A stretch of DNA of 57,203 bases, taken from the NCBI GenBank assembly GCA_018399745.1, contig JAGYNZ010000015.1:1-57203 (forward strand), given 5' to 3'. Within the stretch, counting starts at the first letter, position 1; each line of letters starts with the position of its first letter. Source of the DNA: Deltaproteobacteria bacterium. Lineage in GTDB: Bacteria; Desulfobacterota; Dissulfuribacteria; Dissulfuribacterales; UBA3076. The position numbers were made by a program, and so were the translations under genes. The notes beneath the pieces were generated by a model. It made no database searches and was not told the DNA's origin. It saw only the letters and a list, made by a program, of their open reading frames with translations. Positions 3,530-21,490 of the stretch are shown in pieces.

Positions 3530-3614
3530 CTGGGAAAAATTATAGATGGAGTGCAAGCATATAACGTAAAAGCAAAATCAGAAGAAAGCCCCGAATTAAC
3601 GTTTGGAGGAGGCC

Positions 3615-6155
3615 ATGAAGGATACAGTTCTGAAGATAAGCCTTGCAGGATTACTACACGATATTGGCAAGTTTGCCGAGCGTGCTTTTGCCGTGGATCT
3701 GGGAGACAAGGACAGTGTGCAACAAAATTATAATTATAGTCATGCTTTCAGTACCGAACAGGTTTTAAAAAGTATCTTCCCAGAGTGCCTTGAGAAAAGG
3801 ATTGATAACTCTCTTGATATCAAGGATTGCACGGTGCTGAATCTTGCTGCCCGGCATCACAAACCTAGGCACACTTATGAGGTTATGATCAGCGAAGCGG
3901 ATCGGATCGCCTCTGGACATGAAAGGGCTAAAGCCGACGAGGCTTCTGGCTTTGAGACAAAAGGATGGGAGAGGAAAAGCCAGGTACCTCTGCTTAGCAT
4001 ACTCGGCCGGGTACGTCTAAAAAATGCACCTATCAACGATACATCAAAAAATATGCGCTATCGCATCACAACGCCACCTTTGCGCCATGATGAAACGTTC
4101 GAAAAGGGGTTTCCAGTGACCACCGAAGAGTATAACGCCGCCCAAGTTCGCTCCGATTATAAGAACCATTGGCAGAAGTTCAGGGAAGCTATCACTGGCA
4201 TCGACCCGGAAAAACAGTTTGAGACTTTGTTTGAGGTCTGTCGAATATATCAGTGGTGTCTACCCGCCTCAACTAAAAAGGAGGAGCTTCCAGATGTCTC
4301 ACTTTTCGAACATCATAAGGTGACAGCGGCCCTTGCTTCCTGCCTTTTCCTATATCACCAGCATGAAGGACAATTTTTTGAAAAAAATGCGATCCGCGAC
4401 CGGACAGTGAAAAAATATCTTCTTTTTTGCGGTGATATCAGCGGTATCCAATCGTTCATATACCAGATTTCATCAAAAGGAGCCTACAAGACCTTAAAGG
4501 GGAGATCCTTTTTCATCCAATTGCTGGCAGAAGTTTTGGCCAGAAGATTCATAAAAAAATTCGGCCTGACCATAGCCAATATTCTCTATTCTAGCGGCGG
4601 CAAATTCTATCTGCTTTTGCCATGCACTAAAGAGGTGGAACATCAGCTTGTCTCGCTTGCTGATGAAATCAATTTCGAGCTGTTTAACCGCTTCAATGGA
4701 GACCTTTTTATTCGTACCGGATATGAACCATTATCCGGCGATGACCTTACCGGGGAAAGCGGCAAAAACCTGAGCCAGATTTGGAGCGACCTTGGACAAA
4801 AATTGCTTTTTGAAGACCGAACTCGTTATTCATCTCTTGCCCGCAGGGGCTATGACAATGTCTTTGGATTTAAAGGCAACGCTGAATATATCTCCTGCGA
4901 AGTTTGTCATCAGACTATACGGCCGCGAAAAGCCAATGGGGCTAACCAATGCAAATGCTGCCGTGAAATGATGGAGATTGGCCGTAAGCTGGGGACGAGT
5001 AAATTGCTAGTCATGGCCAATAATGAAACAGCTATTGATGGGCATTATGACTTTTCTATATTTGATAACTATTTCTGGTTCATCGAGGCGGGCCAGAAGT
5101 TTTTCTCCCATAAGGATTGCCTAGTATGGACACTGAATGATCTCGATTTTATCGAATCTGCCAAAGGCAGTTCCCTCTCAACTATAAATGCAGCACCCAT
5201 GATAGTCGGAAGCACCCACCGCTTTAACTTGGAATTTGAAGAAGTAGCCGGGACGGCAAACGGAAGGCACCGGCTTGGAATCCTGCGTATGGATGTGGAC
5301 AATCTAGGACAGATATTTGGTCATGGCCTAGGGGATTACATATATGAAGGTAGGGAAAAACCGGGCAGATTCCATTCACTTGGCCGGATAACTACCCTGA
5401 GCTGGCAGCTCTCTCTCTTTTTTGGAACCATGGTTCCTGCTCTTATAAGAAGCCAAAAAGAATGGAAAGACAGGGTTACTGTAGTCTATTCCGGCGGGGA
5501 TGATCTCTTCCTTCTAGGTGCCTGGGATGCCATGCCCAAAATTGCTCTGGCTGTGCGAAAGGCTTTCAGCCGCTTCTGTTGTCAAAATCCGAGCTGGGGT
5601 CTCTCCGGTGGCGTAGTTATGACCGGCGGCAAATTCCCTGTTTATAAGAGTGCCGAAATGGCGGGAGAAGCAGAGGAAAAAGCGAAAAAATTTTGTATCA
5701 AAATAAATGGCGGAAGAAAACGAAGAAAAAATGCCTTCACCTTTTTCGATACGGTAATGGGATGGGATGAGTTTGACGAAATCACTCGGGTGCGGGGAAA
5801 ATTATATGACAGTCTTGAGAAAACGGAAAACCGGCCCCTGCTTTCCCGCCTCAGGGATATAAATGCTTCATGGACGGCTAGTCGGGACAAAATGCGTCAG
5901 GCTAATGGTATGTTAACAATGACAGAAATCAACAAAAACCTAATGGCGGAAAAGTGGCGATGGCGCATGGTGTACTCGTTGAAACGGCTTGGCGAAAGTC
6001 GGAAAAATCTCAATGAAGCAGTAAAAGATATCCAACAGTTCATACTTAATCCAGTGGCGGGCGGCAAACGTCATGGCATAGAATTTCTTGGTGTCGTAAG
6101 TAGGTGGTGTGAACTTGAATTAAGCAAACCGCAAAATAGCAAAGGAGGGGAATGA
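3615..6155 (+). CDS. cas10: Type III-A signature protein Cas10/Csm1
   Basis: 846 residues from ATG 3615; an in-frame TTG at 3603 is unlikely because the GGAGG box lies at 3605-3609. Cas10 is the large subunit of the Csm complex. It cuts single-stranded DNA with its HD domain and makes cyclic oligoadenylate with its Palm domain once target RNA is bound. The HD motif is intact (LLHDIGKFAE, H15-D16). The zinc-binding segment has CEVC and CKCC around residues 428-450. The second Palm domain carries the intact cyclase motif GGDD at about 626-629 (YSGGDDLFLLGAW). Both activities should be present. It heads a tight cas10-csm2-csm3-csm4-csm5 operon and overlaps csm2 by four bases. Confidence 0.97.
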   Translation: MKDTVLKISLAGLLHDIGKFAERAFAVDLGDKDSVQQNYNYSHAFSTEQVLKSIFPECLEKRIDNSLDIKDCTVLNLAARHHKPRHTYEVMISEADRIASGHERAKADEASGFETKGWERKSQVPLLSILGRVRLKNAPINDTSKNMRYRITTPPLRHDETFEKGFPVTTEEYNAAQVRSDYKNHWQKFREAITGIDPEKQFETLFEVCRIYQWCLPASTKKEELPDVSLFEHHKVTAALASCLFLYHQHEGQFFEKNAIRDRTVKKYLLFCGDISGIQSFIYQISSKGAYKTLKGRSFFIQLLAEVLARRFIKKFGLTIANILYSSGGKFYLLLPCTKEVEHQLVSLADEINFELFNRFNGDLFIRTGYEPLSGDDLTGESGKNLSQIWSDLGQKLLFEDRTRYSSLARRGYDNVFGFKGNAEYISCEVCHQTIRPRKANGANQCKCCREMMEIGRKLGTSKLLVMANNETAIDGHYDFSIFDNYFWFIEAGQKFFSHKDCLVWTLNDLDFIESAKGSSLSTINAAPMIVGSTHRFNLEFEEVAGTANGRHRLGILRMDVDNLGQIFGHGLGDYIYEGREKPGRFHSLGRITTLSWQLSLFFGTMVPALIRSQKEWKDRVTVVYSGGDDLFLLGAWDAMPKIALAVRKAFSRFCCQNPSWGLSGGVVMTGGKFPVYKSAEMAGEAEEKAKKFCIKINGGRKRRKNAFTFFDTVMGWDEFDEITRVRGKLYDSLEKTENRPLLSRLRDINASWTASRDKMRQANGMLTMTEINKNLMAEKWRWRMVYSLKRLGESRKNLNEAVKDIQQFILNPVAGGKRHGIEFLGVVSRWCELELSKPQNSKGGE

Positions 6156-6544
6156 TGCAAAAAAACGAGGTGGAACAATGGATTAGTTCTGGTCCTGAGC
6201 CAAAACTGATGGATATTGCCAAAGAGTTTGGGGAAGAAATAAAAAGTAGCGGCCTTACCACATCACAAATCAGACAGGTCTTTTCAAAGCTTAAATCCAT
6301 TGAGGCAAAAAAATACCGCCAGCAACGGACTGAGTTTATGATGTTAAAGCCTTTTATCGCCTATGCGGCAGGACGACAGGCTAAAGTTAACGGCTTACAA
6401 AAGTTTAAGGAAAAAATTACGTGGGGCATAAATTGTGTTTTGGACGTTCATGGTGACGAAATAGAAGAAGAAAAAAGATTCAAGAATTTTTGTACATTTT
6501 TTGAAGCGATACTTGCTTATCACCGCGCGTGTGGCGGTAAATAA
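6152..6544 (+). CDS. csm2: Csm complex small subunit Csm2
   Basis: 130-residue mostly helical protein placed between cas10 and csm3, the position of the small subunit in type III-A. The segment KPFIAYAAGRQAKVNGLQKF and the helical C-terminal half match Csm2, which lines the complex along the crRNA-target duplex. The start ATG overlaps the cas10 stop (AATGATG), with AAAGGAGG just upstream. A second ATG immediately follows the first, so the protein may start one residue later. The length is normal for the family. Confidence 0.92.
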   Translation: MMQKNEVEQWISSGPEPKLMDIAKEFGEEIKSSGLTTSQIRQVFSKLKSIEAKKYRQQRTEFMMLKPFIAYAAGRQAKVNGLQKFKEKITWGINCVLDVHGDEIEEEKRFKNFCTFFEAILAYHRACGGK

Positions 6545-6561
6545 CGAGGGGGGAAATAACA

Positions 6562-7338
6562 ATGACTGAAACTCTAAAATTGAGCAAAAAGATATTCATC
6601 AAAGGTAAAATATTCGTCAAGACTGGTATACATATCGGTGGATCGTCACTCGGGCTGCAGATTGGCGGCGCAGACAAGGTGGTGGTTCGCAATCCGTTGA
6701 CCAGTCTTCCTTATATTCCCGGTTCGTCATTGAAGGGAAAACTACGTTCTCTGCTGGAAAAAAGTCTTGGCCTGATTACGATTACGCCGAAACAGGATCA
6801 GAAAGGAGAATGGGAAGGCAGACTCTGTGCTGACCCAGAACAAGATGTGGTTCAGCTTTTCGGCAGCCCTGCTGACATCAGCGCGGATTCTGGAATGGTA
6901 AATTCTGCCCCAACGCGCCTTACCGTGCGGGACGCCCCTCTTCTCAATGAAGAAAAATTGGCAGTGGCAGAGAACACCGACATGTACTGCACCGAGATCA
7001 AAACTGAGGTAAACATCGACCGCCTCACTTCTGCTGCCAATCCCCGCAACTTCGAGCGTGTTCCGGCGGGAGCGGAATTCGGACTAGATATGGTAGTGGA
7101 TATTTATAATATCGACGAAGAGGGTGAAAACAAGCGGGCGGAATCTTTTATCGATCTTATGCGGCAGGGGCTCACTCTACTGGAAGACGACTACCTTGGC
7201 GGTCAGGGAACCAGGGGATATGGCCAAGTGGAGTTTGCCATCGATTCAGTGACTGAACGCACCGCCGATGATTACCGCTCCGGCAATGAAGGCAGACCCT
7301 CCCTATTTCAAGAGAAATTCAGTGCTTTCATGAACTGA
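6562..7338 (+). CDS. csm3: Csm complex backbone subunit Csm3 (target RNA nuclease)
   Basis: 258-residue RAMP protein. Csm3 forms the multimeric backbone of the complex and cuts target RNA at six-base intervals. The catalytic aspartate is visible in GGADKVVVRNP (D38), so target RNA cleavage should be intact. The motif PYIPGSSLKGKLRSLLE and the C-terminal glycine-rich loop GGQGTRGYGQV are characteristic. GAGGGGGG lies upstream of the start. It follows csm2 with a 17-base gap and precedes csm4, in canonical III-A order. Confidence 0.96.
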   Translation: MTETLKLSKKIFIKGKIFVKTGIHIGGSSLGLQIGGADKVVVRNPLTSLPYIPGSSLKGKLRSLLEKSLGLITITPKQDQKGEWEGRLCADPEQDVVQLFGSPADISADSGMVNSAPTRLTVRDAPLLNEEKLAVAENTDMYCTEIKTEVNIDRLTSAANPRNFERVPAGAEFGLDMVVDIYNIDEEGENKRAESFIDLMRQGLTLLEDDYLGGQGTRGYGQVEFAIDSVTERTADDYRSGNEGRPSLFQEKFSAFMN

Positions 7339-7354
7339 TAAAGGATGAACAGCC

Positions 7355-8374
7355 ATGACATATTTATACACCTTGCGCTTTTCCGCACCGGCCCATTTCG
7401 GTCTTGAGGGCATTGGTCAGGAACGGATTGAGCAAAGAGTGCGCTCAGACACCCTTTGGGGCGCAATTATCCAGAAATGGCTTCTTCTTTACGAAGATGA
7501 TCCCGACGAATTGTGCTCGAATTCGCCATTTCAAGTATCAAGTTGTTTCCCGATAATTAACTCCACCTGCTTTTATCCTCTTCCCCTAGGTACCCTTGAT
7601 ACGCTTATTTGCGAAGCTGCATCCTGTGAAGAGCCTATCCTGGAGGTAAAGAAACTTAAAAAAATAAGGTTTGTCGCTGCACCCTTATTTGAAAAAATTA
7701 TAGCTGGAGAAAAGATTACCATTGAAGAACTCAAGGTACCAGCCATAGTGTTTCCTTTTTTGCAAGAGGATGAATGCCAGTTGCAAAATGTTTCTGGGTT
7801 TTCCGTTATCCAACGTCCCCGTCTGGCAATAGACCAGTTGAGTGGAGGTGGAATTGAGGGGGCCTTTTTCTATTGCTCTGACCAGTTTTTTGCCGACTAT
7901 GGCGGACTTTTCTTTGTAGCCTCTTTCCATGACGATGACGCGCGGAAAAAATTTGAGGCCTCACTCCAGCTTCTTGGCGATAGCGGACTTGGAGCGGACA
8001 GCTCCATTGGCAGAGGGCTGTTTTCATTTACAGTAGCGGAATATTCTCCGACAGAAATCAAAAAACCAGACGCTTGGCTTCTCCTGTCCTTATATCATCC
8101 CCGCCGGGACGAGGTGGAAAACGGCATGCTGGAAAATCAACAGACAGCCTACTCACTTACAAAACGTGCGGGCAGGGCTGCAAGTTATTTTACCTCCCGT
8201 TTCCGCCGTAAGGATCTGTGGATGCTGGAAGAAGGCTCAGTACTTGGCCAAAAACCCGAAGGTGATGTCTGTAGGGTTCTGGATCGTTCACCACAGATCA
8301 ATATCCCCCACAACGTGTATCGCAACGGTCGCGCCTTTTCCCTTCCCATGAGCCGGCCAAATGGTAAGGAGTAA
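7355..8374 (+). CDS. csm4: Csm complex subunit Csm4
   Basis: 339-residue RAMP protein in the Csm4 position. Csm4 binds the 5' repeat-derived handle of the crRNA and contacts Cas10. The N-terminus (RFSAPAHFGLEG, then RSDTLWGAI) matches the Csm4/Cmr3-like RAMP start. A glycine-rich loop lies at GLGADSSIGRGLF, and the C-terminal domain ends after HNVYRNGRAFSLP, also typical of Csm4. It is separated from csm3 by 16 bases and from csm5 by 5, so the csm genes are clearly one operon. Confidence 0.93.
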   Translation: MTYLYTLRFSAPAHFGLEGIGQERIEQRVRSDTLWGAIIQKWLLLYEDDPDELCSNSPFQVSSCFPIINSTCFYPLPLGTLDTLICEAASCEEPILEVKKLKKIRFVAAPLFEKIIAGEKITIEELKVPAIVFPFLQEDECQLQNVSGFSVIQRPRLAIDQLSGGGIEGAFFYCSDQFFADYGGLFFVASFHDDDARKKFEASLQLLGDSGLGADSSIGRGLFSFTVAEYSPTEIKKPDAWLLLSLYHPRRDEVENGMLENQQTAYSLTKRAGRAASYFTSRFRRKDLWMLEEGSVLGQKPEGDVCRVLDRSPQINIPHNVYRNGRAFSLPMSRPNGKE

Positions 8375-8379
8375 AATTT

Positions 8380-9831
8380 ATGCAATATAAACCAATACGA
8401 AATGTCTATAAATGCCACATGGAGGCTCTTACCCCTCTGCACGTGGGGTCAGGGGAGACCCTGAGGTCGGATTTCGATTTTTTTATTGATTCCGGGATGG
8501 TCCATCTCATCAATACTGCACATCTTTTCAGGAAAATAGAGAAAATGGGGTCGGATAAAATAGAGGAATTCACCATTGCGATTGAGGAGGAAAAGGCCCG
8601 AAACTGGCTCAAACAAAATGGCATAAACATGAAAGAGATTGCCGTCTCGTCATACCCCACCCCAAAGGGCAAAAAAAACCCCCGCGAAATACGCGCTCAT
8701 ATCAAGGATGGTTACGGTACGCCGTATCTGCCGGGCAGCTCTATCAAAGGAGCTCTTCGCACCGCTATCATCAGAAAACTGGCCAAAGAAAATAATAGCA
8801 AAATAAAAGGTGGCAGTAAAAATTTGAAATTTGCTGACCAGACACTGTGTGAATCACTACTTGGCAACGACGCGAAAAGCAACCTTATGCGGACATTAAC
8901 TGTGGGGGATTTTGCCATGGTTCAAGGCGGGATTGATTTGCATATGGTATGGGTAAATCGTTTAATATCACAAGAAAAGTTCGCGGTCAAATTTCCTCCT
9001 ATATATATTGAAGGTCCAACCAAAGCCGCCGTGGCAACAGGTACTATCTCTCTTGATGAATTCCTGCCGCGAAAAGACGCGGAAAAGAGATGTTTTAAAT
9101 TCAAGGCCCATCTGTCGCTCGACTGGCTGGTTGCCGCCTGCCGCGAGCTAACAAGTCATACAATAGAGACTGAGCTCGCTTTTTTAAAAGGCAAATCCGG
9201 AAAGCCGGTAGAGGACCTTGTCTCATTCTATCAATCTCTTGCCGAGGACCAGAAAAAACTTGGGAAAAATGAGGCAATCGTCCAAATGGCTTGGGGTGCA
9301 GGCTGGCGAGGCATGACGGGCCAATTACTGGCAGCTGAAGACATTACTGCCCAAATCCGCAAGGATTTTAACCTTGCGCCTAAATATATTAAATTTCCCT
9401 TTCCTAAAAGTCGTCGGGTTGTTGTCGCTAATGGCGCGGATATGCCCATGGGCTGGTCGAAAATTTCTTTTATCTCAAAGGAAGCACTGAGGCAGGAGGA
9501 GGAAGAGAGAAAACAACGGAAAATCATTCTAAAACAGGAGGAGGAAAAACGCCGTATCGAGTCGGAGAGATTAAATAAGGAAAGGGACATGCAAAATTTT
9601 AAAAATCGAGTCAACCAATGTCCGAACCTGGGTGGAGAAATTGACTTTTTTGTGCAACAGGTCCGGCAGCAGAAAAGTGGGGAAATACGGATGGAAATGT
9701 GCCATGCTCTGCTAGTAAAAGCAAATTCGCTCAAGAAAAAGCAGAAGTTCTCCAAAGCCATAGAAAGCAAAAAATCTTGGGCACTTCAACTCAGAGAATT
9801 GCTTGTTAATAACGGAATCTTAGTAGACTGA
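8380..9831 (+). CDS. csm5: Csm complex subunit Csm5 with charged coiled-coil C-terminal extension
   Basis: 483 residues. Csm5 caps the 3' end of the crRNA in the Csm complex and helps recruit maturation nucleases. The N-terminus (EALTPLHVGSGE) and the RAMP motif YLPGSSIKGALRTAI are characteristic. From about residue 368 the protein continues with a highly charged, predicted coiled-coil segment (EEEERKQRK and EEEKRRIESERLNKE) and a further helical stretch to the end. This makes it roughly 100 residues longer than a typical Csm5. The extension could tether another protein or RNA. The gene ends the csm cluster, before a 449-base gap. Confidence 0.93.
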   Translation: MQYKPIRNVYKCHMEALTPLHVGSGETLRSDFDFFIDSGMVHLINTAHLFRKIEKMGSDKIEEFTIAIEEEKARNWLKQNGINMKEIAVSSYPTPKGKKNPREIRAHIKDGYGTPYLPGSSIKGALRTAIIRKLAKENNSKIKGGSKNLKFADQTLCESLLGNDAKSNLMRTLTVGDFAMVQGGIDLHMVWVNRLISQEKFAVKFPPIYIEGPTKAAVATGTISLDEFLPRKDAEKRCFKFKAHLSLDWLVAACRELTSHTIETELAFLKGKSGKPVEDLVSFYQSLAEDQKKLGKNEAIVQMAWGAGWRGMTGQLLAAEDITAQIRKDFNLAPKYIKFPFPKSRRVVVANGADMPMGWSKISFISKEALRQEEEERKQRKIILKQEEEKRRIESERLNKERDMQNFKNRVNQCPNLGGEIDFFVQQVRQQKSGEIRMEMCHALLVKANSLKKKQKFSKAIESKKSWALQLRELLVNNGILVD

Positions 9832-10280: not shown

Positions 10281-10601
10281 ATGAAAGAACTCGAGGAAAA
10301 AGTTGCAAATCGTTTCAAATTTTTACTGTCACAGCACGTGCCGCTATATAGGGTAATAATATTCGGATCCCGCGCAAGAGGAGACGCTGATCCCGATTCC
10401 GACATGGATCTGCTTGTAATCCTGGACGGACCTGTTTCTGCAGATGCAAGAAAACATGTAAGTGATTGCGCCTGGGAAGCGGGTTTTAATCATGGTCTTG
10501 TCGTCTCTCCCATAGTTGTTTCCCGCCAGAGCTGGGAAAATGGTCCTGATCGATATTCCCTTCTCGCACAGGCAGTTGAGGAGGAGGGGATCGCTGTATG
10601 A
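10281..10601 (+). CDS. MNT-type nucleotidyltransferase (antitoxin of MNT-HEPN pair)
   Basis: 106-residue minimal nucleotidyltransferase. The signature IIFGSRARGDADPDSDMDL contains G-S and the D-x-D metal-binding pair. MntA-like proteins of this kind neutralise their HEPN partner, in the studied cases by adding nucleotides to it. Its stop overlaps the start of the HEPN gene (ATGA), so the two are translationally coupled. It sits between csm5 and the csm6-like gene, on the same strand as the cas genes. Family assignment is confident; an antitoxin role is inferred from the pairing. Confidence 0.88.
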   Translation: MKELEEKVANRFKFLLSQHVPLYRVIIFGSRARGDADPDSDMDLLVILDGPVSADARKHVSDCAWEAGFNHGLVVSPIVVSRQSWENGPDRYSLLAQAVEEEGIAV

Positions 10602-11002
10602 AAGATGACGAAATTCTTATTCTTATACAGTATAGGATAAAGCAGGCAGAAGAGTCGCTTGGGGACGCAAAGGCTCTTCTGAATGCGGGTCGCAGCCCAC
10701 GGAGCATCATTAATCGATCTTACTATGCCATGTTTTATGCCGTACTCGCTCTGTTGCAGAAAATCGGAAAGGTTCCGCATAAGCATAGTGGAGTGATCAG
10801 TCTTTTTGATACTGAATATGTCATGAAGGGTCTGTTTTCAAAGGAACTCTCCAGGGATCTCCATGATATTTTTAATCTAAGGCAGATGTCCGATTATCAG
10901 GTCATTGATCCTGTGACATTAGATGATGCCCAAAAAGCCTTGAAACGATCGGAAAGTTTCGTTAAAGCTGTCAGAAAACACCTGATGCCGAAGGACAAAT
11001 AA
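10598..11002 (+). CDS. HEPN domain protein (toxin of MNT-HEPN pair), UPF0332 type
   Basis: 134-residue helical protein matching the HEPN subgroup with NRSYYAMFYAVLALL, then KHSGVISLF and LRQMSDYQ. HEPN proteins paired with minimal nucleotidyltransferases act as toxins, often RNases. I do not see a clear R-x4-6-H RNase motif, so activity may rest on other residues or the protein may be a non-nuclease member. It overlaps the nucleotidyltransferase gene by four bases. Its placement within a type III CRISPR locus, next to two other HEPN-containing ribonucleases, is notable. Confidence 0.87.
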   Translation: MKDDEILILIQYRIKQAEESLGDAKALLNAGRSPRSIINRSYYAMFYAVLALLQKIGKVPHKHSGVISLFDTEYVMKGLFSKELSRDLHDIFNLRQMSDYQVIDPVTLDDAQKALKRSESFVKAVRKHLMPKDK

Positions 11003-11136: not shown

Positions 11137-12384
11137 ATGAAAAAAATCCTGATTGTGACAGTTGGAGGGTCTTGTGCGCCTGTTATTAACGCTGCCCGAA
11201 CGGGCGGTTATAACCATGTTTTTTTTGTATGTTCCACAGGTTCCAGAGGAAGCGAAAAAACAGTTGATGGAGAGGGGGAACCATGCGAGGGGATACGAAG
11301 CGATCGGTCGGATAAATCTATCGTTGCTCAAACCGGGCTTTCAGACGATCAATATACGAAATGGACCCTTGAGGACATAGATAACCTTGGGGTATGCTAT
11401 CAACGCCTCAAGGAACTGAGGGCTGCTATTTATCAAACCTTTGGGCATGAGACCGAGATAGTGGCAAACTACACTGGTGGCACCAAGACCATGTCAATAG
11501 CTTTAAGTATGGCAGCTTTGGCAAGTGGCTGGGGGCTACAGGTAAATCGCGGACCAAGAATTGATTTAGTCAAGGTCCGTCATGGTGACGCACCTGTATT
11601 CGCCGCCATGTCAGACATTTATGAAGATCAGTATGCTATTCTTGTAAAACAAGCCCTTAGTCGTTATGACTGCGGACTTACGTCAGTGCTTGCCCTTGAT
11701 CTTCTCAGAATGAACCTGTCTTCCGACAGTCAACGAAATTGGGCAGATATCTATGCCGTAGCTGCCGGTTTTAATTTTTGGGATTTATTTGATCATTCTA
11801 AAGCCATAGAACATCTTATGCCTTTCGGTCGCTATTATTCGAATTATCTGGTGGCCTTAAAAAAACTTACCGGCCAGGAGAAAGGCAATGGCTACGAGGC
11901 GGTCTCTGACCTCCTGAACAATGCGGAAAGACGTGCATCACAGGACAGGTTTGACGATGCGGTTGCTAGACTCTACCGTGCCACTGAGATGGTAGCCCAA
12001 ATTCGCCTGTTCAAAAAATACGAATTGGACAGCAAAAAGTTAACCCTCAATAATATACCGGAAAACCTTCGTTCAGAGTACGAGCCCTTTGTCCGTGACA
12101 ATGGAAAAGTCCTGTTGGGGCTCCGTGAGTCCTTCGGCTTGTTGAATCGTCTTAATGACCCGGTGGGTAGGCTGTTTGAGACGAAAAGCAATGCGGTGAT
12201 TGATGGACTGAAAACACGAAATAATTCAATATTAGCTCATGGGATTAAACCTGTGGATCGGGAAGGCTATGAAAAGGTATGGGAGACCCTTCATGGCTTT
12301 ATTTCTGAAGCCTTGGATTTGGCCGAGGGTCGCCTGGATGTGCCACAATTCCCCCGTGACTTACCCATGCTTGCAGAAGCTTAG
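11137..12384 (+). CDS. CARF-HEPN protein, Csm6-like (TIGR02710 type)
   Basis: 415 residues. The N-terminal CARF domain opens with KKILIVTVGGSCAPVI, a Rossmann strand-loop, and has the ligand-binding signature NYTGGTKTMS. The C-terminal part is helical and ends with RNNSILAH, an R-x6-H HEPN RNase motif. This is the architecture of Csm6, the ribonuclease activated by cyclic oligoadenylate from Cas10. It is a second effector of this type in the locus and is not closely similar in sequence to the CARF protein near cas6. It follows the MNT-HEPN pair and precedes the primase-like gene. Exact family naming is by recall of motif and layout. Confidence 0.87.
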   Translation: MKKILIVTVGGSCAPVINAARTGGYNHVFFVCSTGSRGSEKTVDGEGEPCEGIRSDRSDKSIVAQTGLSDDQYTKWTLEDIDNLGVCYQRLKELRAAIYQTFGHETEIVANYTGGTKTMSIALSMAALASGWGLQVNRGPRIDLVKVRHGDAPVFAAMSDIYEDQYAILVKQALSRYDCGLTSVLALDLLRMNLSSDSQRNWADIYAVAAGFNFWDLFDHSKAIEHLMPFGRYYSNYLVALKKLTGQEKGNGYEAVSDLLNNAERRASQDRFDDAVARLYRATEMVAQIRLFKKYELDSKKLTLNNIPENLRSEYEPFVRDNGKVLLGLRESFGLLNRLNDPVGRLFETKSNAVIDGLKTRNNSILAHGIKPVDREGYEKVWETLHGFISEALDLAEGRLDVPQFPRDLPMLAEA

Positions 12385-12410: not shown

Positions 12411-14135
12411 ATGTATGTTCAAGCCAGAAAGTTATTGGAGCAAGGCTTTGAAGACCGGGTCAGGGATATCTATCTCCATGGCCGATCAAAGAAGGGACAA
12501 TCGGCACAGGACTATGCCGCCTGGGCCAGGATTGGTGAAGAACTGGATTTGCTTTCTCAGGCCAGAGAAGACTGGCAGCGGGCCTTATCTGTAACTCCTC
12601 ATTTCTGCGCTGATTACTGCATAGGTCTGGCCAGGGTGCTGACACAGTTGAATGAGCAACCTGAGCGCGTTGTTCGACTACTCCAAAATGTCATTTCAAA
12701 AGAACCGGATCGCCCTGAACCCAGAACGATGCTTGCTCAGGTCTATCGCTCTCTTGGCTGGGACCAAGCTGCGCGGTGTCTTGATCAGGAAAAAAATCGA
12801 TCGGATAAAAAGATCGGACCTCGGAGGTTTCCCCGTGATTTGGATCAGCAGATCCTGGACCTATTCCTCAAGTTATTTGGCGGCAAGGAGGTAGGTTATG
12901 CCGAAGAGGTTATGAATTCCGAAACCGGAGCAGTGAATCTCGTGCATAAAGAGACCCCTATGGGCAGAGGCGATGTCAAAGAGCATTTATTGGGACATAG
13001 AAGCCTGGCATGGTATCCGTTGAGGAGCGATTTAACGGTCAGCATCATAACTTTTATGTACCATCTCAAAACAGCCGGTCTAAAAGACGTTGGCCCCAGG
13101 ACACGGTCCGAACTCCTTTGGAATTCCGCATGGGAAGGATTCAGGTATCTGAAAGCAAGGGGCCTGCCGGTAGTGCTCGAAGACTGCCCGGGTCTATCAG
13201 CTCGTATTTGGGTCTTTCTGGAAAAGCCCTGCCACTTCTTAATGACCAGACGAATGGCAAAACTATTGGTGCAGAAGTTGCCTTTTCCCCGTTCCGGAGT
13301 CAGCCTATGTCCGCTTCTTCCAACTGTAGCCCGGGGAATGAAATGGGAAGAGCAAGCACATCCAATGCCGCTCGGTGTTGATAAACGATCAGGTATAAGG
13401 CGCTGGTTTTTAGATGAACAGACAAAGGAGCCCGCACCAGACCAGCTCCTGTTCTTACACCGGATTGTTTGCATTAATCCCAGCCGGTTGAGGCAGATAG
13501 TGCAAAAAATTGAGTTCGGCGGCGACTTCAGACCGTTCGCTGATTTGGATCAACAGTCGCTTGATCTCCTCCTGTCAAAGTGTCCGGTCATTAAAACCAT
13601 TGGGGATAAGGCAGCGGCCGGGCGTATTCTGAACCGTAAGGAAAAGGTGGCTGTCTTTTATACAATAGGATTTCTGGATCAAGACAATAGTCTTCTTCAT
13701 AGGTTTCTGAACCCTTGTCCAGACTATCGTTATAAAGCAGTTGCCAGACAGGCTAAAAATATCCATCCTCGGCCAATCAGTTGTCTCAAGCTACGCTCCT
13801 CACTACCAGAGATCACCGCCTCAGTTGATTGTAACTGCCTTTTCGGGCCTGACCAACTTTCAGACGGCCGATATCCGTCACCTTTGCTTCATGTCAATCC
13901 AATGCTGGTTCCCACTGAGGACGAGCGCTTGAGCATTCAGCGTTCCACAGTAAAGGAACTTGGCAGACACTACCTGAACATCAGCCAGGAGATATCCTCA
14001 CTTGAGAAACGACGCGATATATTGGCCAGGGAATTGGCTGAAGGCCTGAGCAGAAAAAGCAGGCCGTGGACAAAGGTGAATGGCAGTATTCTGAGCCTGG
14101 AAAATGATGGCAATATAAGGATTTCATCAATATGA
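12411..14135 (+). CDS. CRISPR-associated primase-polymerase-like protein (CAPP type), apparently inactivated
   Basis: 574 residues. Residues ~35-125 look like tetratricopeptide repeats. Residues ~150-400 align by eye with the archaeo-eukaryotic primase domain of TOTE/CAPP proteins (FGGKEVGYAEE, HLLGHRSLAWYPLRSDL, then GLPVVLEDCPGLSARIWVFLE). The C-terminal part resembles a primase C-terminal domain with cysteines (ISCLKL, DCNCLF). CAPPs next to cas1-cas2 have been linked to spacer acquisition. The catalytic positions are unusual here: where family members have hhhDhD, this one has SIITFMYHL (211-219); the motif II histidine is arginine (SARIW, 263-267); and no aspartate is seen in the motif III region (LPFPRSG). 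It overlaps cas1 by ATGA. Confidence 0.8.
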   Translation: MYVQARKLLEQGFEDRVRDIYLHGRSKKGQSAQDYAAWARIGEELDLLSQAREDWQRALSVTPHFCADYCIGLARVLTQLNEQPERVVRLLQNVISKEPDRPEPRTMLAQVYRSLGWDQAARCLDQEKNRSDKKIGPRRFPRDLDQQILDLFLKLFGGKEVGYAEEVMNSETGAVNLVHKETPMGRGDVKEHLLGHRSLAWYPLRSDLTVSIITFMYHLKTAGLKDVGPRTRSELLWNSAWEGFRYLKARGLPVVLEDCPGLSARIWVFLEKPCHFLMTRRMAKLLVQKLPFPRSGVSLCPLLPTVARGMKWEEQAHPMPLGVDKRSGIRRWFLDEQTKEPAPDQLLFLHRIVCINPSRLRQIVQKIEFGGDFRPFADLDQQSLDLLLSKCPVIKTIGDKAAAGRILNRKEKVAVFYTIGFLDQDNSLLHRFLNPCPDYRYKAVARQAKNIHPRPISCLKLRSSLPEITASVDCNCLFGPDQLSDGRYPSPLLHVNPMLVPTEDERLSIQRSTVKELGRHYLNISQEISSLEKRRDILARELAEGLSRKSRPWTKVNGSILSLENDGNIRISSI

Positions 14136-15178
14136 GCGTCTTGTATCTGCTTGAACCACAGAGCATAGTTCATAAAGAAGGAGGACGCCTGGTTGTAAAA
14201 AAGGGCAAGGACACGCTGCACAGCGTGCATATTTTCCGTCTGGATCAGGTAGTCATCATGGGACCTGTTATCGTCACTCCTGCTGTTATCAGAATCCTCC
14301 TTCAGGAAGGGATTGACACGGTCTTCATGAGTCGTCGCGGCTATTATTATGGACGGCTTCAAGGTCCAGAGAGCAAAAACATAGTCCTGAGAAGGGATCA
14401 ATTCGATCGACTCACTGATCCTGATTTTGTCCTCAGCACAGCAAAGGCATTAGTCAAAGGCAAACTCAGGAACCAAAGGGCTTTGCTCCAGCGCCTCATG
14501 AGAAATCAGAAAGGCCTTGATCTTAAAAAACCCGTTGATAGCATAGGACGCCTTGCAGATCTTGCGAACTCTGCAGTCGACTTGGACGAACTCAGAGGTT
14601 ATGAAGGTCAGGCGGCCGCTACCTATTTTCCTGCATGGGGCAAAGGGATCAAAGTTGAGGGTCTGAAATTCAGCCGGCGGGTCCGCCGCCCTCCAAAAGA
14701 TCCAGTGAATGCACTGCTCAGCCTCGGATACACGTTACTCCTTAATAATGTCCTGGCAGCAGCTCATTCCACAGGTCTTGACCCATATCTTGGAGCACTC
14801 CATGCCGTGGACTACGGCAGGCCCAGTCTAGCCCTGGATCTTATGGAGGAATGGAGGCCCCTTATTATCGATACCTTGGTACTGAGCGTCTTTAACCTGG
14901 GCGTATTGACAGGCAAAGATTTCACCGCCAATCCAGCGCAATACGAAAATGACTCAGGAGATGAGGAATTTGATGGCAAAGGTCTAGGAACCTACCTCAT
15001 AGATGCCGGCTGGCGGAAATATATCGGGCAGCTTGAAAGGCGTATGGCAACGGAGGTGACCTTTCATCTGAATGACCAGCATCTAAGTTACCGTGACGCT
15101 ATTCGGCAACAGGTCCGTCATTTTGCAAGCTATATTCGAGGTGATTCGGATATCTATCAACCGATGCCTCTGCGTTGA
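14132..15178 (+). CDS. cas1: CRISPR integrase Cas1
   Basis: 348 residues. Cas1 with Cas2 inserts new spacers at the leader end of the array. The metal-binding residues are in place: a glutamate in RGYEGQAAATYF, the histidine in LGALHAVDYGRPSLALDL and the acidic residue in the following MEEWRPL. The N-terminal beta domain begins LYLLEPQSIVHKEGG. There is no fused reverse transcriptase or Cas6 domain. The start codon overlaps the stop of the primase-like gene, so the adaptation genes are coupled to it. Cas4 is absent, as usual for type III. Confidence 0.97.
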   Translation: MSVLYLLEPQSIVHKEGGRLVVKKGKDTLHSVHIFRLDQVVIMGPVIVTPAVIRILLQEGIDTVFMSRRGYYYGRLQGPESKNIVLRRDQFDRLTDPDFVLSTAKALVKGKLRNQRALLQRLMRNQKGLDLKKPVDSIGRLADLANSAVDLDELRGYEGQAAATYFPAWGKGIKVEGLKFSRRVRRPPKDPVNALLSLGYTLLLNNVLAAAHSTGLDPYLGALHAVDYGRPSLALDLMEEWRPLIIDTLVLSVFNLGVLTGKDFTANPAQYENDSGDEEFDGKGLGTYLIDAGWRKYIGQLERRMATEVTFHLNDQHLSYRDAIRQQVRHFASYIRGDSDIYQPMPLR

Positions 15179-15189
15179 GGTAAAGAAAA

Positions 15190-15468
15190 ATGTATGTCCT
15201 GATTTCCTATGATATTGTTGATGACAGACGTCGCCTAAAGGTAATGAAATTTTTGAAAGACTTCGGAAAGAGAGTGCAATTAAGCATGTTTGAATGTCAT
15301 CTGACCGAGGAACAGCTTGTTTTTGTTCGATCAGGGGTACGTGACCTTATAAATCATCGTAAAGATCGCATACGGTATTGGCCTATCTGCAAAACCTGCG
15401 CCGCCCGTGTGGAGGTAGATGGCTGGGGCGAAGTGCAGGAAGAAGAAGAGAGTTTTGCGATAGTTTGA
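15190..15468 (+). CDS. cas2: Cas2, first copy
   Basis: 92 residues starting MYVLISYDIVDDRRR, the ferredoxin-like fold of Cas2 with its conserved aspartate after the first strand. Cas2 dimers bridge two Cas1 dimers in the integration complex. A C-x2-C pair (CKTC) is near the C-terminus. GAGG lies before the start, and the gene follows cas1 by 11 bases. It is one of two tandem cas2 genes that differ clearly in sequence. Confidence 0.95.
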   Translation: MYVLISYDIVDDRRRLKVMKFLKDFGKRVQLSMFECHLTEEQLVFVRSGVRDLINHRKDRIRYWPICKTCAARVEVDGWGEVQEEEESFAIV

Positions 15469-15480
15469 CAAGGTGACAGC

Positions 15481-15774
15481 ATGGGCAGCAGAACATCTTA
15501 CATGGTCATTAGTTATGATATCAGTGATCCAAAAAGGCTGAATAAGATCGCGAAGATCATGAAGAATTATGCAACCAGGGTCCTTTACAGCGTATTTGAG
15601 GGCGAACTAAACTGGAGCCAAGAGCAGAGAATGCGTCGAGAGGTTGTCCAGGTGCTGGATGTTGAAGAGGATAGTGTCAGGTATTATCACTTATGCAGAC
15701 GATGCAAGGACCGAATTCTGACAAATGGTATTAAAGTGCCCCTTCAGGAGGAAAAAGATTTTGAGATTATATAG
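15481..15774 (+). CDS. cas2: Cas2, second copy
   Basis: 97 residues (SYMVISYDISDPKRLNKIAK), again Cas2 with the strand-Asp motif and a C-x2-C pair (CRRC). It shares the fold-defining positions with the upstream Cas2 (RVLYSVFEGEL versus RVQLSMFECHL) but is otherwise diverged, so this is not a recent duplication. AAGGTGA precedes the start 12 bases after the first cas2. The two proteins could form a heterodimer within one Cas1-Cas2 complex; that is inference. It is the last cas gene before the leader. Confidence 0.95.
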   Translation: MGSRTSYMVISYDISDPKRLNKIAKIMKNYATRVLYSVFEGELNWSQEQRMRREVVQVLDVEEDSVRYYHLCRRCKDRILTNGIKVPLQEEKDFEII

Positions 15775-16056: not shown

Positions 16057-19000
16057 GTGAGAACCGATGACCCGATTAGGAGGGGATTGAGACTGTTTTA
16101 CATCGTCATAATCTTTAATTTTTTTCATTCTCTAAGTGAGAACCGATGACCCGATTAGGAGGGGATTGAGACTGAATTGGAAACATTTGTAATTAGGTAC
16201 TTGCATTTTGTGAGAACCGATGACCCGATTAGGAGGGGATTGAGACCTTGAATTAGCAGAATCGGTTAAATTTATTCGATACCAGGTGAGAACCGATGAC
16301 CCGATTAGGAGGGGATTGAGACTTAAGGTAATTCAAAAAGGTATCAGGGTTATCTGCTATAGTGAGAACCGATGACCCGATTAGGAGGGGATTGAGACTT
16401 ACATCGAATTGTCCGACTGAATCCAGGCCGAATATAGTGAGAACCGATGACCCGATTAGGAGGGGATTGAGACGGGGATTCTGTCTAGCCTATATGACTT
16501 TTTAAATTGTGTGAGAACCGATGACCCGATTAGGAGGGGATTGAGACCCTTGATATTAGTTTATTTTACTGATTACATATGTCGTAGTGAGAACCGATGA
16601 CCCGATTAGGAGGGGATTGAGACGCTTTTAATTCGGTATATGTTTTCATAGTCTTTTTCTCCGTGAGAACCGATGACCCGATTAGGAGGGGATTGAGACC
16701 CCTTATAAATTTATTTGTATTAATTCCTGACTAAATCTGTGAGAACCGATGACCCGATTAGGAGGGGATTGAGACTCAACCCCTTTTTGTGTCCATTCAA
16801 CTTGTGTCTGTGAGTGAGAACCGATGACCCGATTAGGAGGGGATTGAGACTTGACTAAATCTAGAGCTTTTCTATGCGCTCTACCTGTGAGAACCGATGA
16901 CCCGATTAGGAGGGGATTGAGACCGGATGTATAGATGATTATGATATGACACCAGAAAGGGGTGAGAACCGATGACCCGATTAGGAGGGGATTGAGACTT
17001 TCATTGTCTTAATCCTCCCTTTAAATTTTGATGTTAGTGAGAACCGATGACCCGATTAGGAGGGGATTGAGACTAAGGAGAAACAATCTCCGGCTTTGGA
17101 TTGACTATTGTTGGTGAGAACCGATGACCCGATTAGGAGGGGATTGAGACACTTTAGTGAGCAACAAGACCTCTTTTTTGCCTCCTGTGTGAGAACCGAT
17201 GACCCGATTAGGAGGGGATTGAGACCCGATATACTTTAAAAGTATTAAACAAAGTGCGTTTTGTGAGAACCGATGACCCGATTAGGAGGGGATTGAGACT
17301 CCATTCGTGCAAAATGTATCAACGGAATCATCTTCGTGAGAACCGATGACCCGATTAGGAGGGGATTGAGACGATTCCAGTTGCTGGCAATCATGGGTTT
17401 GTCATCAGTGAGAACCGATGACCCGATTAGGAGGGGATTGAGACTCGTGGATCTCTTCTCATTGTCTTAATCCTCCCTTTAAATGTGAGAACCGATGACC
17501 CGATTAGGAGGGGATTGAGACCATTATTATACTTAATCCATAGCATACTCTGTTCATCGTGAGAACCGATGACCCGATTAGGAGGGGATTGAGACCCGGG
17601 GCTGTCAAAGGGTTTAAATCTTTGTAATAACAGTGAGAACCGATGACCCGATTAGGAGGGGATTGAGACTATACGCAAAAAACATAATAAGTTAATAGTT
17701 GACAGTGAGAACCGATGACCCGATTAGGAGGGGATTGAGACGTCAAGCACTCTTTCTATAGCTTGGATTCTTTCTGATGGTGAGAACCGATGACCCGATT
17801 AGGAGGGGATTGAGACCCACCAATCACACGGACCTTTGAAATAATGTAAATATAGTGAGAACCGATGACCCGATTAGGAGGGGATTGAGACTCAAATCCT
17901 TGTTTTTCCATCTGTGTTGCCTCCTGTGTGAGAACCGATGACCCGATTAGGAGGGGATTGAGACTTCCCCCTTTATTTTATTATGACACTCTTTACATAA
18001 GCGTGAGAACCGATGACCCGATTAGGAGGGGATTGAGACCAAAACCGAACGCTTGGTATTGTTCTGTTCCCATGGTGAGAACCGATGACCCGATTAGGAG
18101 GGGATTGAGACATCTCCTTTTTCTTTTCGTTTTCATTAGTCATGTTTGGACGTGAGAACCGATGACCCGATTAGGAGGGGATTGAGACAAGTGTCGTTAG
18201 TATTACGAGCACTTTCATGATTATTCCAGTGAGAACCGATGACCCGATTAGGAGGGGATTGAGACCATTAATCTCCTGACATATTACTATGTCAGGAATC
18301 TCTGTGAGAACCGATGACCCGATTAGGAGGGGATTGAGACCTGACAAACTGTTCATGGATGTAAGCCAGATTATCTTCGTGAGAACCGATGACCCGATTA
18401 GGAGGGGATTGAGACTCAAGGTAGAGCTTTAATGCCTTGGCTTCGGTCTTTGAGTGAGAACCGATGACCCGATTAGGAGGGGATTGAGACGCGGAGAAGT
18501 TCTTCTCCGTTCTCTTCTATGAAATCCTGGTGAGAACCGATGACCCGATTAGGAGGGGATTGAGACTCTGCGCAAAAAGCTTCGCAAGGTCAGCCGGGTC
18601 TTCAGTGAGAACCGATGACCCGATTAGGAGGGGATTGAGACTAAAGCAAAACCTGTATGAACTCCAGTTCTAGTCCTGGTGAGAACCGATGACCCGATTA
18701 GGAGGGGATTGAGACTGTAATTGCTCGAACCCTTGTTTTTCCATTTGTGCTGCCGTGAGAACCGATGACCCGATTAGGAGGGGATTGAGACTCTTGTAGT
18801 TTAAATTCTTTTGTAATTGCTCGAACCCGTGAGAACCGATGACCCGATTAGGAGGGGATTGAGACGATTGCGTACTTGCCGGACGCCTTCAATGCAGCTC
18901 CGTGAGAACCGATGACCCGATTAGGAGGGGATTGAGACCATAACTAAAAACCCCCCTGGAAACACGATTCCAGTTGGCGTGAGAACCGATGACCCGATTA

Positions 19001-21490
19001 GGAGGGGATTGAGACCCTCAGGGGAGAACCCTTTGTATCTCCCCCCGTTTCCGTGTGTGAGAACCGATGACCCGATTAGGAGGGGATTGAGACGCCATCT
19101 TGATAATAGAATATTTTTCTCCATTATCGTGAGAACCGATGACCCGATTAGGAGGGGATTGAGACCCACTGATATTTACTGCAATCAAATTTTCTTTTAT
19201 TGTGAGAACCGATGACCCGATTAGGAGGGGATTGAGACGCAAATCCTTATGCCTGAAATTTTCTGCAAGCTCAAGTGAGAACCGATGACCCGATTAGGAG
19301 GGGATTGAGACGGTTACATCAGTCCATGTTTTCATGTCAGTCTCCTATGTGAGAACCGATGACCCGATTAGGGGGGGATTGAGACAGCCCTCACTGGTGG
19401 AGGGCTTGAGAGGTTGAGATGGTGAGAACCGATGACCCGATTAGGAGGGGATTGAGACGTCTCTGTATGCCTCTTGTGTCTGCGGATTGCCTGAGTGAGA
19501 ACCGATGACCCGATTAGGAGGGGATTGAGACTATCTGTGCCGCGATCATCTGAGGTGTATGAGTAGCGTGAGAACCGATGACCCGATTAGGAGGGGATTG
19601 AGACCTTTGCTTGTCTTAAAAAGACCTTAACGCCTTTATAGGTCAGTGAGAACCGATGACCCGATTAGGAGGGGATTGAGACTCCGCCCAACAAATACAG
19701 TCTTCAACCTTGCTAGGTCTTGTGAGAACCGATGACCCGATTAGGAGGGGATTGAGACCGTTTTGCATTCATCATGGTATTTCCTCCCTTTTTTATTGTG
19801 AGAACCGATGACCCGATTAGGAGGGGATTGAGACTTGAATTAGCAGAATCGGTTATCGATTTATTATTCGTTCGTGAGAACCGATGACCCGATTAGGAGG
19901 GGATTGAGACGCTTAGGTTCCAGCCTGTACAAAGGTTCAATATTTCTGTGAGAACCGATGACCCGATTAGGAGGGGATTGAGACAGTAGTTGATTAAGCT
20001 GGATATTTACGTTTGTAATGTCTGTGAGAACCGATGACCCGATTAGGAGGGGATTGAGACTTTATGCCGTTGATTATGGCTTTTCTGAGCAGTTTCAAGG
20101 TGAGAACCGATGACCCGATTAGGAGGGGATTGAGACCTTCTTACTCCTCGCTCTTTGGTATAAACTGTTATCGTGAGAACCGATGACCCGATTAGGAGGG
20201 GATTGAGACAGAGCCTTTTAATGTCGTACTCAGGACGTTAATTGTTAGGTGAGAACCGATGACCCGATTAGGAGGGGATTGAGACAATATCCTGTATCTG
20301 CGTATAAAGGGCTTTCAGTGTGTGAGAACCGATGACCCGATTAGGAGGGGATTGAGACTTAGACATTTTCAGCTCTTTGATATATTCATAGACCGCATGT
20401 GAGAACCGATGACCCGATTAGGAGGGGATTGAGACTAACTTTGCCAAGTCTCTTTCGTGTGCATCTTCAATGTGAGAACCGATGACCCGATTAGGAGGGG
20501 ATTGAGACACCAAACAAGTTTGTCCCTTTTGCAACCCCGCTGCCAGTGAGAACCGATGACCCGATTAGGAGGGGATTGAGACGTTTTGTATCTCTTGAAG
20601 GGCGGTATTTGTTTACCTCGTGAGAACCGATGACCCGATTAGGAGGGGATTGAGACACACTGTCTGGTATAATTCCATTCACTTTTCCCCCTTTAGTGAG
20701 AACCGATGACCCGATTAGGAGGGGATTGAGACGTTTCCACCTGATGGCACCTTTTAAGGTCTCAAAGACAGTGAGAACCGATGACCCGATTAGGAGGGGA
20801 TTGAGACCCAGAAGGTCAATATCTGCTCTGTTATCTGCACTTAATAGTGAGAACCGATGACCCGATTAGGAGGGGATTGAGACTAATATTCACTACTTAA
20901 CGTTTTACAATTTCGGCTGTCCGGTGAGAACCGATGACCCGATTAGGAGGGGATTGAGACTTTTTAATATCGTCCCTTGTTGTTAAGTCCATCTCTGTGT
21001 GAGAACCGATGACCCGATTAGGAGGGGATTGAGACATCAAGGGTCCTTGCATTATGCACAAGGTAATAGGCACCCTGTGAGAACCGATGACCCGATTAGG
21101 AGGGGATTGAGACCCTCTGCTGGATTATCTCTATGCGAGATACATTTAATCGTGAGAACCGATGACCCGATTAGGAGGGGATTGAGACACGACTGTTCCA
21201 TAATAGAGATTTGAATCAGTTATGCCGAGTGAGAACCGATGACCCGATTAGGAGGGGATTGAGACGGCCTTGGACTTTGAGGCAATCTTATTACCTTTGG
21301 GGTGAGAACCGATGACCCGATTAGGAGGGGATTGAGACGCTGTCTCTTTTGCTCCGCTTTTCGTGCCGATAGCACGGGTGAGAACCGATGACCCGATTAG
21401 GAGGGGATTGAGACTATAGCTGTGCTAGCTCGTTTCTTTGCTCGTCTGTCAATGTGAGAACCGATGACCCGATTAGGAGGGGATTGAGAC
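16057..21490 (+). CRISPR. CRISPR array, 73 repeats of 37 nt, 72 spacers
   Basis: The repeat begins GTGAGAACC and ends GGGATTGAGAC; the last eight bases, ATTGAGAC, resemble the crRNA 5' handle common in type III systems. That orients transcription left to right, away from the leader and cas genes. Counting by eye gives 73 full repeats with unit length 72-79, so spacers are 35-42 nt. All repeats appear identical except the one at 19349-19385, where base 25 is G instead of A. Several spacers overlap or are variants of each other, and at least eleven are antisense to apparent gene starts. Frames seen here that repeat the peptide RTDDPIRRGLR or LNPLLIGSSVLT are translations of the repeat, not genes. 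Confidence 0.98.

Follow-up and report, generated by a model that had tools for sequence, protein, structure and literature searches.

A CRISPR-associated primase-polymerase homologue without catalytic residues and its association with a second Cas2 paralogue in Desulfobacterota

The type III-A locus and the domains of its CAPP homologue

The window, i.e. the whole stretch of 57,203 nt that was analysed (contig JAGYNZ010000015.1 of a Deltaproteobacteria bacterium), contains a complete type III-A CRISPR locus. It comprises csm1-5, an MNT/HEPN pair, a CARF-HEPN Csm6-like gene, a homologue of the CRISPR-associated primase-polymerases (CAPPs), cas1, two cas2 genes and an array (Table 1). The CAPP gene is an intact open reading frame, whose stop codon overlaps the cas1 start (14132) as ATGA. 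A first-pass annotation had described it correctly as coupled to cas1 by this overlap and as otherwise intact, with a TPR-like N-terminal part and a C-terminal domain.

Table 1. Features of the CRISPR locus and of the CAPP homologue in the window.
Feature	Position	Strand	Basis or remark
csm1(cas10)-csm2-csm3-csm4-csm5, type III-A effector genes	3603..9831	+	TIGR02578, TIGR01870, TIGR02582, TIGR01903, TIGR01899, all above cut-off
MNT nucleotidyltransferase + HEPN pair (toxin-antitoxin-like)	10281-11002		Four-base overlap; between csm5 and csm6-like gene
CARF-HEPN Csm6/Csx1-like gene	11137..12384	+	TIGR02710, E 3e-57; upstream of CAPP
Dead CAPP type A1 homologue (574 aa; TPR - AEP - Cys-rich C-terminal domain)	12411..14135	+	NF040561, PADLOC PrimPol, AF2 model
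TPR-like helical N-terminal part (residues 1-130)	12411..12800	+	Weak TPR_19/TPR_14 matches below cut-off; helix pairs; TPR structural matches
AEP (PrimPol) domain, fold kept in model (residues 144-365)	12840..13505	+	AEP-TOTE; superposition on 7nqe
Former DxD metal site, now M216-Y-H218	13056..13064	+	Multiple alignment
Former motif II His, now R265	13203..13205	+	H in 19/19 active, R in 29/30 dead clade
H275 (HFL motif), newly fixed in dead clade	13233..13235	+	28/30 dead; P in 15/19 active rows
Former motif III Glu, now C300	13308..13310	+	E in 19/19 active; multiple alignment
Clade-specific T305...G309..W312.E314, replacing FPKQ...GxGN stretch	13323..13352	+	Multiple alignment
C-terminal domain, four invariant Cys; predicted PriL/PRIM2-like Fe-S domain	13542..13949	+	AF2, structural match, Cys conservation
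cas1, integrase residues E, H, D present	14132..15178	+	PF01867, E 7e-89; residue check
cas2a, lineage including the single Cas2 of active-CAPP loci	15190..15468	+	Pfam/NCBIfam; trees
cas2b, second Cas2 paralogue typical of dead-CAPP loci (RVLYSVFE)	15481..15774	+	Trees; profile scan of 395 genomes
CRISPR array, 73 copies of 37-nt repeat, spacers 35-42 nt	16057..21490	+

The protein matches NF040561 (CAPP type A1; PrimPol_Msp) with 236.9 bits (curated cut-off 200, E 3.8e-70) and the Pfam model AEP-TOTE with 35.3 (cut-off 27), and is labelled 'PrimPol, adaptation polymerase' by PADLOC (E 1.8e-75). In a phmmer alignment to the Marinitoga CAPP (7nqd/7nqf), AYDIDIK stands opposite TFMYHLK and GYHIWIFF opposite ARIWVFL. 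The likeness to the TOTE/CAPP primase (AEP) domain, first drawn by eye, is thus borne out. The architecture is that of CAPP type A1, namely TPR - AEP - C-terminal domain beside type III cas1/cas2. At the type A1 motifs (I DxD, II H, III D/E) the protein carries M216/H218, R265 and C300 instead. Its AEP domain matches the TOTE model, but the gene lies in a cas operon without TOTE helicase/nuclease modules, and its N-terminus is TPR-like, where a CART-CAPP would have an RT domain. Because the motif residues are missing, the protein should, judged by its sequence, be filed as a CAPP-derived pseudoenzyme and not as a functional CAPP.

An AlphaFold2 model of the whole protein was built from 20 sequences (pLDDT 85.5), and its residues 144-367 were superposed on MsCAPP (7nqe) with a Z-score of 26.4 and an rmsd of 2.6 Å over 214 residues; Foldseek matched the AEP domain to 7nqf with E 1.7e-12. 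In the predicted structure, the AEP fold is kept while the active site is gone. The TPR part is apparently not essential to the role of the protein, since it is missing from two dead CAPPs of the same order as the window (L005 and L008; 456-467 aa), which start near the AEP domain.

The C-terminal domain contains four invariant cysteines, C391 (13581), C458 (13782), C474 (13830) and C476 (13836), with a spacing of 67-16-2, all of which are found in 28 of 28 dead-clade sequences. Ahead of any structure search, this pattern had been likened to that of the PriL Fe-S domain. Folded alone by AlphaFold2, the domain reached a pLDDT of 91.4, and its only compact structural matches were chains of the human PRIM2 4Fe-4S domain, the best being 3q36 (Z 5.9 over 115 residues, TM 0.45, rmsd 3.7-4.2). 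A sequence-profile search of the domain against PDB and Pfam returned nothing. As the Foldseek E-value of 4.3 is not significant by itself, there is moderate evidence that the model represents a PriL/PRIM2-like 4Fe-4S domain.

The system around the protein appears to acquire spacers. All 70 spacers extracted from the window are unique and none is common to G002, another genome of the same genus; arrays in dead-CAPP loci reach up to 99 repeats, and the Cas1 residues E, H and D are kept in all dead loci in which these parts are assembled. With long arrays, unique spacers and an intact Cas1, adaptation in dead-CAPP systems thus appears to be live. The window spacers gave no match to phage records. 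Spacer length was rejected as a separator of dead and active loci, as the means are mostly 36-40 in both. One apparent dead CAPP-Cas1 fusion (L087, 8606-10720) was also rejected: an in-frame deletion joins CAPP (to ~487) with Cas1 (from ~150), and the join is therefore no evidence of a CAPP-Cas1 partnership. The deletion takes away the N-terminus of Cas1 together with the Cys-rich end of the CAPP and points to a decayed locus or an assembly collapse.

Loss of the catalytic site within a Desulfobacterota clade

The first-pass annotation had seen no aspartate at the hhhDhD motif and an arginine in place of the motif II histidine, and both readings agree with the multiple alignment. The two DxD positions are D/D in 19 of 19 active relatives, and Asp occurs in none of the 30 dead-clade sequences at either of them. 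No single acidic residue of the motif I strand stands in for the Asp pair in the alignment. The missing motif III residue, likewise noted, is not an aspartate as had been stated: CAPPs carry Glu at this position, which is E260 in MsCAPP (PMC10345425). This Glu is still present in 19 of the 30 dead-clade sequences and gone in the window protein. Its nucleotide site is affected as well: in the conserved KxPLGxH stretch, Lys and His have given way to P318 and D324. An AxA mutant of MpCAPP (D177A/D179A) has no detectable activity (PMC8211822), and DNA polymerisation by the window protein is therefore very unlikely. Besides H275, residues newly fixed in the dead clade are T305 and W312 (28/30 each) as well as G309 and E314 (29/30 each).

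Relatives were collected in two scans, the first covering 84,980 species genomes with one 9-residue pattern, which members in other phyla may have escaped, and the second covering 395 genomes of the phylum, 21 of which carry a dead relative. Together they yielded ~30 distinct relatives. All 30 sequences of the dead clade come from Desulfobacterota (former Deltaproteobacteria), the named records being former Deltaproteobacterium or Thermodesulfobacteriota, and the hosts include Desulfofervidaceae, Desulfobacca, Syntrophobacteraceae, Desulfarculaceae and Thermosulfurimonas. NCBIfam and PADLOC currently label the proteins of this clade as active polymerases. No relatives were detected in IMG/VR, and no dead CAPP was found on plasmids. 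In a maximum-likelihood tree, a quick one rooted on chosen active rows, all 30 dead sequences lie beyond a single branch with a support of 100. Their sister group consists of active Desulfobacterota CAPPs, and the Marinitoga CAPP falls outside both, so that the catalytic loss appears to be derived and single. The tree contains no CART-CAPP, because active CAPP queries matched only AEP-helicase proteins on plasmids and primases in phages.

A sequencing error is excluded by the gene of G002, which is 78% identical and shows the same losses. Between these two genes, dN/dS, taken as the ratio of computed dN and dS, is 0.16 (NG86) to 0.22 (YN00) over the whole gene and 0.16-0.19 in the AEP domain. 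Mean pairwise identity in the sister active clade is highest in the AEP domain (0.605, against 0.575 in the C-terminal domain). In the dead clade, the AEP domain has dropped to 0.374, and the C-terminal domain, at 0.542, is now conserved best. By these comparisons, the loss of the active site is neither error nor decay. The first reading of the gene as catalytically dead is thus upheld by the alignment, the superposition of the predicted structure on that of CAPP and a homologue search that placed the same Asp loss in one monophyletic clade.

No locus-linked RT or second AEP replaces the dead CAPP. Of the 21 dead genomes with an AEP-TOTE match, 20 have no second one, and G164 has one extra fragment. 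For RT (RVT_1), 15 of 22 dead genomes, including that of the window, gave no match, and the RTs of the other seven are either on a different contig or over 100 kb away from the locus.

Two Cas2 paralogues beside the dead CAPP

Two cas2 genes were found in 26 of 26 dead loci assembled past cas1 (window included; the pair of G071 was recovered on a second contig), compared to one in each of the 18 active-CAPP loci. One family (f72; L083-L085) has the second cas2 ahead of the CAPP gene. The sole exception to the two cas2 genes is Thermosulfurimonas dismutans, whose CAPP and cas1 are broken; its locus (L040/L105) shows both genes split and one Cas2 of the b type. A relative, G343 (L116), holds only a lone cas2b-like gene. 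In G002, the cas2a reading frame (L071, 7148-7450) is shifted by 1 nt at a run of A close to its start, which may be an assembly error. Neither the tandem second cas2 that marks the lineage nor the conserved four-Cys domain had been mentioned in the first-pass annotation.

In the trees, Cas2b forms a clade of its own, and Cas2a groups in the part that holds the single Cas2 of active loci. When a Cas2b profile was run against the 395 genomes, the 19 top matches (124-146 bits) were all in dead-CAPP genomes. They were followed by two matches near 116 bits, in G413, which has the broken locus, and in G343 without CAPP, and ordinary Cas2 proteins scored 113 bits at most. A tandem of cas2 genes as such was rejected as a unique mark of dead CAPPs, as cas1-cas2-cas2 also occurs in type III loci that lack a CAPP; according to the trees, the tandem Cas2 proteins of these loci belong to lineages other than Cas2a and Cas2b. 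In those of L111-L115, with the order csm6-cas1-cas2-cas2, the two Cas2 represent two further separate lineages. The co-occurrence of dead CAPP and Cas2b is best read from the trees as one coincident event with strict retention, i.e. an association and not a cause. As each of the two has a single origin, their co-occurrence counts as one event and not as many independent ones.

A proposed non-catalytic role in spacer acquisition

Several known systems resemble the one described here. The Vibrio vulnificus type III-D module, which Gonzalez-Delgado is said to have described in 2019, reportedly combines RT-Cas1 with two Cas2, A and B. It shares two different Cas2 in a type III acquisition module with the window, but has an RT-Cas1 fusion and no dead CAPP. 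CAPP_A type 1 (MpCAPP/MsCAPP) has in common with it the TPR-AEP-CTD architecture, the type III cas1/cas2 neighbours and the AEP fold (Z 26), whereas the window protein lacks all catalytic and nucleotide-site residues, has new fixed residues and stands in an operon with a second cas2. The window protein may work like the large primase subunit PriL/PRIM2, a primase protein that is not catalytic itself, and its C-terminal domain is probably also an Fe-S domain. The two do not match in sequence, PriL has nothing equivalent to the dead AEP, and a PriS partner is missing. The RT-PrimPol fusions termed CART-CAPPs (Caloramator, Geobacillus) are CAPPs with a PrimPol domain that is inactive in vitro, the RT having taken over, and why the domain is retained was unclear to the authors (PMC10415136). 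In these, however, the RT domain is part of the same protein, while the window protein has the TPR part in its place and no RT exists at the locus or in the window's genome. Neither a stand-alone RT-less dead CAPP lineage nor a link to a second Cas2 was reported in the limited library of literature searched.

The protein is probably a CAPP-derived pseudoenzyme that is selectively kept as a non-catalytic subunit of a Cas1-Cas2a/Cas2b acquisition complex. MpCAPP binds Cas1 via residues 1-360 (TPR+AEP) and reaches Cas2 through partners (PMC8211822), and a physical complex is proposed for this reason; genetic linkage is what the present loci show. Judged by its residues and fold, the dead AEP would keep its shape without binding catalytic metal or polymerising DNA. 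The TPR+AEP part would most likely dock on Cas1 as in Marinitoga, and the four-Cys domain, probably PriL/PRIM2-like with Fe-S, may grip single/double-strand junctions or ends of a DNA that would be the prespacer or an integration intermediate. Gap-filling, if any, would be left to host polymerases, and Cas2a and Cas2b may form an asymmetric pair or heterodimer. A conserved, non-synthetic role, as suggested in the first-pass annotation, is supported by dN/dS, by the residues that became fixed, by the lack of a substitute polymerase at the locus and by arrays that are long and hold unique spacers; we infer the exact role to be that of a scaffold or nucleic-acid binder in spacer acquisition.

That the gene is instead a functionless, decaying remnant, i.e. 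a pseudogene in the making, is hardly credible. The catalytic site is gone, the AEP diverges faster than in active relatives and a few loci are broken, e.g. that of Thermosulfurimonas dismutans (L040/L105) and the frameshifted L036 and L037, but the clade is old, monophyletic and spread over many families. Moreover, dN/dS is 0.16-0.22, new residues are fixed in 28-29 of 30 sequences, the four Cys are invariant and the operon overlap with cas1 is kept. Some of these fixed or kept residues are acidic or His and could be taken for a rebuilt metal site (e.g. E257, E300 in relatives, E314, H275) with which the protein still polymerises or cuts nucleic acid. This is very improbable, given that both motif I Asp are lost in 30 of 30 sequences without a single acidic replacement of the pair on the strand, and that the window protein has also lost the Glu and the nucleotide-site Lys and His.

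A regulatory or recruiting partner of a polymerase that is active in trans, be it a host DNA polymerase, an RT or another CAPP, is rather unlikely, but has a better claim. Host DNA polymerases are present in every cell, and CART-CAPP fusions pair an inactive PrimPol with an active RT (PMC10415136). Against such a partner, 20 of 21 dead genomes with a match have no second AEP (G164 has a fragment), 15 of 22 have no RT and the rest have none near the locus. Recruitment of a host polymerase by the dead CAPP would be compatible with the preferred reading, the non-catalytic subunit of the acquisition complex. More tentatively, and somewhat short of an even chance, a single ancestral change in Desulfobacterota may have turned the CAPP into a dead Fe-S adaptor and simultaneously the Cas2 core into a heterodimer, giving an asymmetric Cas1-Cas2a/Cas2b-deadCAPP integrase that does not need a dedicated polymerase.

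CAPPs are thought to serve spacer acquisition by making DNA, either for prespacers or for gap filling. A selected and widespread CAPP lineage that would not synthesise DNA and has no RT to replace it allows scaffolding and synthesis to be told apart in a directly testable way. It may also answer the puzzle of the CART-CAPPs (PMC10415136), as their inactive PrimPol domain may have a non-catalytic job. Finally, an asymmetric Cas2 core is suggested by the strict pairing of dead CAPP and Cas2b, and it would bear on how type III systems set spacer orientation.
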